64,000 bases of DNA, from assembly GCF_900104045.1 (NCBI RefSeq), contig NZ_FNIN01000001.1, forward strand, positions 248,001 through 312,000, given 5' to 3'. Of the stretch, positions 49,290 to 51,278 are shown one piece after another (position 1 is the stretch's first letter; each line of letters starts with the position of its first letter). The translations under genes were made by a program, and so were the position numbers. The stretch comes from Desulfonauticus submarinus. GTDB lineage: Bacteria > Desulfobacterota > Desulfovibrionia > Desulfovibrionales > Desulfonatronovibrionaceae. Below the pieces are notes generated by a model, which saw only the letters and a program-made list of their open reading frames with translations, did not search any database and was not told the DNA's origin.

Positions 49290-49336
49290 AAAATTTTTCT
49301 CCTATTGCTAGAATAAAAAAGACTTGACTTGTCACG

Positions 49337-49365
49337 TCTATATAAGGCATTTGTAGTTTATGCAA
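49337..49365 (-). promoter_or_regulatory. Candidate murA promoter
   Basis: On the minus strand TTGCAT (49360-49365) and TATAGA (49337-49342) are separated by exactly 17 bases, 48 bases before the murA start. Confidence 0.55.
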
Positions 49366-49374
49366 TTACTAAAT

Positions 49375-49504
49375 TACGCTACGGACAAATTTAATTTTCC
49401 CTTTTTTGCCTTTTTTAACTTTAATAAATATTATATGTCCGTGGCGTAGAAGAGATAATATAAAAAAAACAAAGCCACGGACCTAAAAGTTCGTGGCTTT
49501 TTTT
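49375..49504 (+). promoter_or_regulatory. Attenuator-like leader before the phenylacetate-CoA ligase gene
   Basis: Four segments can pair in mutually exclusive ways. Segment 1 (49375-49387) pairs with segment 2 (49436-49448) over 13 positions with one G-U. Segment 2 (49437-49445) pairs perfectly with segment 3 (49474-49482) over 9. Segment 3 (49471-49482) pairs with segment 4 (49489-49500) over 12 (one G-U), followed by a T run to 49504, a full intrinsic terminator. The 1:2 fold allows termination; the 2:3 fold prevents it. No known riboswitch class was recognised. Confidence 0.65.
49471..49504 (+). terminator. Intrinsic terminator in the paaK leader
   Basis: A 12-bp stem with loop CTAAAA and T run, 29 bases before the start codon of the ligase gene. 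No plus-strand gene lies upstream for it to end, which supports a regulatory role. Confidence 0.85.
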
Positions 49505-49532: not shown

Positions 49533-50837
49533 ATGTTATATGATGTAGAGCGTGAAACCATGCCAAGAGATGAACTCGAATCTTTGCAACTTAAAAGATT
49601 AAAGTATTTGGTGGAAAAAGTTTATCACAACGTTCCTTTTTACAAAAAACGCTTTGATGAACTAGATCTAAAACCCGAGCACATTAAAACCTTATCAGAT
49701 TTAAAATACTTACCTTTTACGGAAAAACAAGATTTAAGAAATAACTATCCTTTTGGACTTTTTGCAGTGCCCAAAGAAAATGTAGTAAGAGTGCATGCAT
49801 CTTCAGGAACCACTGGTAAAGCTACTGTAGTTGGATATACTAAAAGAGATATATCCATTTGGGCGAATCTTATGGCCAGATCATTTGTTGCCACAGGTGT
49901 AACAAGGCGAGACATTGTTCACAATGCCTATGGATATGGATTATTTACTGGTGGCCTTGGAATGCATTATGGAGCAGAAACTTTAGGCGCTACGATTGTT
50001 CCTATTTCTGGAGGAGGAACAAAACGCCAAGTTATGTTAATGAAAGATTTTGGTTCTACTGTACTTTGCTGTACTCCTTCTTATAGTCTATATTTATATG
50101 AAACAGCTCTAGCTCAAGGTATTGATATAGATAGTTTAAAATTAAGAATAGGCATTTTTGGAGCAGAACCATGGACAGAAAAAATGCGCTTAGAAATAGA
50201 AAAAAAGTTTAAAATTAAAGCATTAGATATTTATGGTCTTTCTGAAATTCTAGGCCCTGGTGTAGCTATTGAATGTGAAACAGAACAACATGGTCTACAT
50301 ATATGGGAAGACCATTTCCTCATCGAAATTATAAACCCTGAAACAGGAGAACAACTTCCTTTAGGAGAAACAGGTGAGCTAGTAATAACCACTCTAACTA
50401 AAGAAGCTCAGCCCTTAATTAGATATAGAACCAGAGACATTACTTCTATCATTCCTATCCCATGTAAATGTGGTCGAACACATTATCGTATAGAACGATT
50501 AAAAGGACGTAGTGATGATATGCTAATTATCCGAGGAGTAAACGTGTTCCCATCTCAAATAGAAAGTATCTTATTAGAGACTGAGGGATTAACCCCTCAT
50601 TATCAAATCATTGTAAAACGAGAGGGAGCTTTAGATGTTTTAGAAATTCAAGTAGAAGTAGATGAAAAAATATTTTCAGATGAAATAAAACACTTACAAA
50701 GATTAGAAAGGAAATTAATTCAAACTATTAAAGAATTTTTAGGTGTAAGTACAAGAGTAAAATTGGTCGAGCCTCAATCTATTACTCGCTCAGAAGGTAA
50801 GGCAAAACGAGTCATAGACTTACGTAAACAATCTTAG
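49533..50837 (+). CDS. paaK: Phenylacetate-CoA ligase family enzyme
   Basis: 434 residues, the usual PaaK length. The adenylate-forming motifs are [18 protein letters not shown] and [12 protein letters not shown], followed by a C-terminal domain with [20 protein letters not shown]. It activates an aryl acid to its CoA thioester with ATP. In anaerobes this gene pairs with an ACT protein and commonly serves aromatic amino acid degradation through aryl-acetates (linked to indolepyruvate oxidoreductases). Start is preceded by AGGGGTGGGAAG. Confidence 0.92.
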
Positions 50838-50846
50838 GAGGTAAAA

Positions 50847-51278
50847 ATGAAAGTAGAACAAATTTCTGTATTTTTAGAAAACAGAGCTGGTAGATTAGAA
50901 GAAGTAACCAAAATATTAGCTGAGGCGAAAATAAATATAAGAGCTTTATCTCTAGCAGATACTTCTGACTTTGGCATCTTAAGACTAATAGTAACAGACA
51001 ACAATAAAGCTAAACAGGTATTAAAAGAAAATGGGTTTACTGTAGGAAAAACTAATGTAGTAGCTGTAGAAGTAGATGACAGACCAGGAGGATTATATAA
51101 TATTTTATCTATTTTAAGTAAAAATAAAGTAAATGTTGAATATATGTATGCCTTTGTTCAACAAAGTGGTAAAAATGCTGTCTTGATTTTTAGATTTGAT
51201 AGAACAGATGATGCAATCAAAATACTAAGTGAAAATAATATTAAGATTATACCAGGAAAGGAATTATACAATATATAA
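50847..51278 (+). CDS. Tandem ACT-domain amino acid-binding protein
   Basis: 143 residues with two ACT domains ([19 protein letters not shown] and [19 protein letters not shown]). ACT domains bind small ligands, mostly amino acids. It lies 9 bases after the ligase gene and is probably cotranscribed, so it may sense an aromatic amino acid for that pathway. Confidence 0.92.

Follow-up and report, generated by a model that had tools for sequence, protein, structure and literature searches.

A putative phenylalanine-codon transcription attenuator upstream of the paaK-ACT operon of Desulfonauticus submarinus

Which signal governs the paaK-ACT operon of Desulfonauticus submarinus, and what senses it? 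The operon lies in a 64,000-nucleotide stretch of the genome (hereafter, the window). Its first gene, paaK (49533–50837, forward strand), encodes a phenylacetate-CoA ligase-like protein of 434 aa that matches PF00501 and PF14535 and scores 614 bits against TIGR02155, just under the 646-bit cut-off. The second gene (50847–51278, forward strand) encodes a 143-aa ACT-domain-pair protein (PF19571, ACT_8, 107 bits) and adjoins paaK in 89 of 109 related loci. In the classical view, PaaK opens the pathway of phenylacetate breakdown, and the pair of PaaK and ACT, widespread in anaerobes, is usually annotated as aromatic breakdown. The original prediction had described a three-way switching leader before this operon, with an aromatic amino acid or an aryl acid as its possible signal.

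Alternative helices and a leader open reading frame

The four segments on which that prediction was built agree in position with the sequence, and the three mutually exclusive helices were borne out. Segment 1 (49374–49387, forward strand as are all leader features) pairs with segment 2 (49436–49449) over 14 contiguous base pairs, two of them G-U, which extends the 13 pairs given originally. Segment 2 has segment 3 (49471–49482) as its other partner: nine pairs join 49437–49445 to the core of segment 3 (49474–49482) and form an antiterminator, which overlaps the end of the leader open reading frame (ORF) described below. The whole of segment 3 also pairs with segment 4 (49489–49500) in a 12-bp stem with a loop of 6 nt; with the U run (49498–49504), this stem forms an intrinsic terminator (49471–49504) between the leader ORF and paaK. 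The 2:3 and 3:4 helices compete for segment 3, hence the antiterminator excludes the terminator, and the proposed terminator/antiterminator logic is supported. The leader folded with an energy of −38.5; its dinucleotide-shuffled versions gave −18.8 ± 3.2, which corresponds to a z score of −6.1. Even a looser three-way set (9/8/9 pairs and a T run) appeared in none of 1000 shuffles, the 1:2 duplex had a better energy than all 300 shuffles, and the 2:3 duplex reached −19.4 kcal/mol versus −5.5 in shuffles. We also noted an A-rich run ahead of the terminator stem (49462–49504), so that the hairpin resembles a bidirectional terminator; a leftward transcript is not expected here.

The statement that no short leader peptide is present proved wrong. 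An ATG-initiated ORF of 29 codons (MQLLNYATDKFNFPFFAFFNFNKYYMSVA, 49360–49449) spans segments 1 and 2, and its translation contains seven Phe and three Tyr residues. The control codons (49390–49434) comprise the seven Phe codons at 49390–49422, followed by two Tyr codons at 49429–49434. Segment 1 falls within leader codons 5–10, and the stop codon, TAG (49447–49449), lies inside segment 2. The ORF has no clear Shine-Dalgarno sequence. When the 181-nt stretch from the start of murA to the terminator was shuffled, an ATG ORF with at least 10 aromatic residues arose in 0.13% of cases; the aromatic density of the leader gave p values of ~0.0003–0.001 in dinucleotide shuffles (0.0003 in the tighter density test).

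Ribosome-mediated attenuation, as in trpL and pheL, is defined by the way in which the control codons, the stop codon, and the alternative helices are interlocked. Since ORF, control codons, and helices interlock in the same manner here, the paaK-ACT leader has the anatomy of a pheL/trpL-type attenuator. On these grounds, it is very probably a ribosome-mediated transcription attenuator that senses the charging of tRNA-Phe, and perhaps of tRNA-Tyr too. With ample Phe, the ribosome would pass the Phe codons, reach the stop codon in segment 2, and mask that segment, thereby allowing the 3:4 terminator to form. When charged tRNA-Phe is scarce, it would stall at 49390–49422, leaving segment 2 free to pair with segment 3 and permitting read-through into paaK-ACT. 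If the leader were untranslated, 1:2 would form and the terminator would stay on. We infer both the stalling and the direction of the response.

Recurrence and covariation in relatives

Such a leader might be mimicked by chance, if T-rich DNA coding for Phe lay beside an ordinary terminator. The genome, being AT-rich, does contain many Phe-run DNA patterns (419 matches), and a search of the genome for the Phe-run codon pattern found it about as frequent as the control. The shuffle tests above speak against coincidence, as does the divergent orientation of murA, which leaves no same-strand upstream gene for a terminator to serve. We therefore regard chance as extremely improbable, and its improbability is reinforced by the recurrence of the arrangement in relatives of differing GC content and by the covariation reported below.

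Desulfonauticus is placed within Desulfovibrionales in the taxonomy database, and the closest relatives of paaK are those of two other Desulfonauticus loci, L036 and L037, at 87% identity. A search upstream of paaK in relatives, as the original prediction had proposed, recovered a Phe/Tyr-rich leader and a terminator in five loci: L036 (MQSRNFPFLFSFYYFFYFCVKLGSGG), the Desulfoplanes-type L031 (MNQTFTTFSLFYFYFFTFAHKGESVVSA), the Desulfoplanes locus L042 (MTNTYTSFSFFYFFTFTKRKRSVVSV), L120 from a second Desulfovibrionales family (MTAFPSTISFFATYWYFWYGFRSESVVV), and L055 from a more distant genome (MRKREEYFWFYFKGYP). The terminator occupies the same place as in the window, and aromatic density was significant in each of the five leaders (p = 0.0003–0.0007). 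The aromatic codons recur even in L120, which is GC-rich (GC 0.58). The 2:3 duplex was better than shuffles in the window and in all five (p ≤ 0.014). A weaker form with the same layout and fewer Phe codons (only 1–4) was found in genus g14 of family f3, which we take to be Desulfomicrobium-like (for example, MQSIVDSPRFPIFTGPFWKGATV and MRYIIDSVFFLIFRSPFHGVTV); in these GC-rich leaders, the 2:3 duplex was mostly no better than shuffles.

To the claim that the helices covary, the alignment gave a positive answer for both 2:3 and 3:4. It consisted of nine rows set in register by hand, with one bulged base of L036 dropped and with L119 and L055 left out. In helix 2:3, 90% of cells were paired and four pairs had changed on both sides, whereas slid controls gave 27–38%; in helix 3:4, 94% of cells were paired and six pairs had changed on both sides (slid controls, 26–39%). 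Because strand 3 is shared by the two helices, each change in it needs two matching changes, and mostly has them.

The covariation also bears on whether the terminated leader serves mainly as a source of a trans-acting small RNA or peptide, with attenuation secondary, as for rnTrpL/peTrpL of Sinorhizobium meliloti (PMC7298713). As with rnTrpL, a short terminated RNA would be expected here, with its start close to the ATG. The paired partners, however, are cis elements that covary, and we consider a chiefly trans-acting role very unlikely.

An equally slight probability attaches to the proposal that the leader is a riboswitch or a protein-bound RNA, responding to an aryl acid, an amino acid, or an RNA-binding protein, in which the ORF is incidental. 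The three-way helices are present irrespective of translation, and an amino acid is a conceivable ligand of the downstream ACT protein. Against this, the relatives have in common the leader ORF, the aromatic codons (kept in L120 despite its GC content), and the helices; an aptamer-like core is not what they share. Moreover, Rfam gave no match of any kind, riboswitches included, anywhere in the window at gathering scores. An aromatic amino acid is supported as the ultimate signal, but a ligand-binding RNA as its receptor is not: given the Phe-rich leader ORF, the sensor is most likely the translating ribosome, reading charged tRNA-Phe.

The attenuator is not universal. The survey covered paaK loci outside genus g12 of family f5; no attenuator was found before paaK in Desulfonatronovibrio-type genomes or in the examined genomes of three other families, so that many Desulfovibrionales carry paaK-ACT without this control. 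In L037, AGG stands in place of the leader ATG and the terminator is absent as well; the loss of both together would count in favor of an attenuator. With these two losses, the sequence between ~120 and 75 nt ahead of paaK (L037/L008), in the same genus as the window, has the appearance of a decayed attenuator. No terminator was found upstream of the other paaK paralogue, L002, nor were T-boxes, as an independent form of aromatic control of paaK, found in 14 Clostridia-type loci.

A promoter-like element (49324–49352, forward strand) precedes the leader and consists of TTGACT (49324–49329), a 17-bp spacer, and GCATTT (49347–49352), a poor −10 match unlike TATAAT. TTGAC lies 35–36 nt before the leader ATG in the window, L036, L119, L120, and the g14 group, and 39–40 nt before it in L031 and L042; GGCA follows ~16–17 bp downstream of TTGAC in many of the attenuator loci. 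This spacing puts the leader ATG at approximately +1, hence the leader is possibly leaderless, with transcription probably starting near 49360, at about the leader ATG. That a transcript begins upstream of 49375, as the original prediction presupposed, is suggested by the conservation of this element. TTGAC-N16-GGCA is also conserved before paaK at loci that lack the attenuator (L012–L018, L021–L030, and L044–L052), and in some species (L021 and L119) the element is an inverted repeat.

Known leaders and the aro/pheA operon

The best weak Rfam match of the paaK leader, in permissive mode, was Phe_leader (RF01859), at 33.6 bits against a gathering score of 55 (E = 3.8e-4). With a score below gathering, the paaK leader is Phe-leader-like in its predicted working but not a scoring member of RF01859. 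It shares with this enterobacterial pheA/pheST-type family a Phe-rich peptide, a stop codon in segment 2, and an antiterminator and terminator that have strand 3 in common. Unlike Phe_leader, it precedes paaK-ACT instead of pheA or pheST, is longer, lacks a clear Shine-Dalgarno sequence, and has segment 1 upstream of the Phe codons. One point that counts against the attenuator reading is that the control codons of E. coli trpL are within segment 1, whereas the Phe codons here fall between segments 1 and 2. Leaderless attenuators are known: the leader ATG of S. meliloti trpL is at or near the transcription start (PMC7298713), and mycobacterial polycysteine ORFs are described as leaderless attenuators by Canestrari 2020, as cited in PMC13236596. 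Those systems concern other amino acids and operons, and the start site of the paaK leader is, by comparison, only a predicted one. Searches of the open-access literature yielded no description of a Desulfovibrio aromatic or paaK attenuator, and aromatic leaders are not mentioned in Rodionov 2004, on delta-proteobacterial regulation. While the mechanism of attenuation is known, paaK-ACT as its target is apparently unreported.

The same device precedes an aromatic biosynthesis operon elsewhere in the D. submarinus genome (G000:C2, locus L146). An aromatic-rich leader (MNVQLSNHNLSYFWFFWYYYFMRACGLEGEL; L146 4971–5066, reverse strand), with the core FYFWYFYF followed by a RACGLEG-like C-terminus, is succeeded by an antiterminator and a GC-rich terminator. 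We take the operon to include an aldolase-type first shikimate enzyme, dehydroquinate synthase II, and EPSP synthase; a prephenate dehydratase in it was identified by a PF00800 match. Across Desulfovibrionales (L146 and L147–L176), an aromatic-rich leader of this kind, an antiterminator, and a AAAGGGCCGCAGGC...GCCGGCGGCCCTTT terminator stand before the aro/pheA operon. The terminator was at the corresponding place in 30/30 loci. Of the 29 loci other than L146, 28 yielded the leader; the exception, L171, is on a contig that stops 116 nt upstream. An Rfam scan of one locus gave no gathering-level match. The comparison also reveals, at the aro operon of Desulfovibrionales, a conserved attenuator of the aromatic type. 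It has the same ORF-antiterminator-terminator plan as the paaK-ACT leader, occurs in the same genome and, in most loci, likewise has TTGAC ~36–40 nt before the leader ATG. By contrast, its peptide contains Phe, Tyr, and Trp and ends in the RACGLEG-like sequence, while the paaK leaders of Desulfonauticus have Phe and Tyr only.

A possible role of paaK-ACT in phenylalanine supply

Control by Phe starvation suggests that paaK-ACT supplies Phe. The proposal that PaaK-ACT in Desulfovibrionales is an anabolic, Phe-repressed module for aryl-acid salvage seems to us evenly balanced between true and false. Phenylacetate would be activated to phenylacetyl-CoA, reductively carboxylated by an indolepyruvate oxidoreductase-type enzyme, and transaminated to Phe, and the phenylacetate-activating enzyme would be made only on Phe shortage. 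As part of this salvage reading, we tentatively suggest that two pathways, de novo aromatic synthesis through its operon and a bypass from phenylacetate to phenylalanine, are each governed by near-leaderless attenuators. If so, a textbook catabolic enzyme would have been turned biosynthetic. There is a precedent in Methanococcus maripaludis, where aryl acids are converted to aromatic amino acids and indolepyruvate oxidoreductase is implicated, according to the citation of Porat et al. in PMC4162585. The genome of D. submarinus holds iorA (754.8 bits against a cut-off of 650.9; on C1, outside the paaK-ACT operon), a neighboring gene that, judging by its sequence, is probably iorB, and also a prephenate dehydratase.

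It is possible, though we think it rather unlikely, that the attenuator works in the way set out above while paaK-ACT has no biosynthetic role, serving under Phe shortage, for example, in the detoxification or re-use of aryl acids or in CoA-thioester signalling. The classical place of PaaK in catabolism favors such a role, as does the position of iorA, which is unlinked and has no attenuator-like leader upstream of its operon. Two genomes with paaK-ACT, G028 (with the leader) and G024, also have no close iorA (best identities, 36% and 32%, respectively), and the route would have to use some other oxidoreductase in them. On the other side, control of the same type is predicted for the shikimate/prephenate operon in the D. 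submarinus genome, and a gene for Phe supply would be expected to share it. Regulation is here evidence of function: a Phe-codon attenuator argues for a part of paaK-ACT in amino-acid supply in these bacteria.
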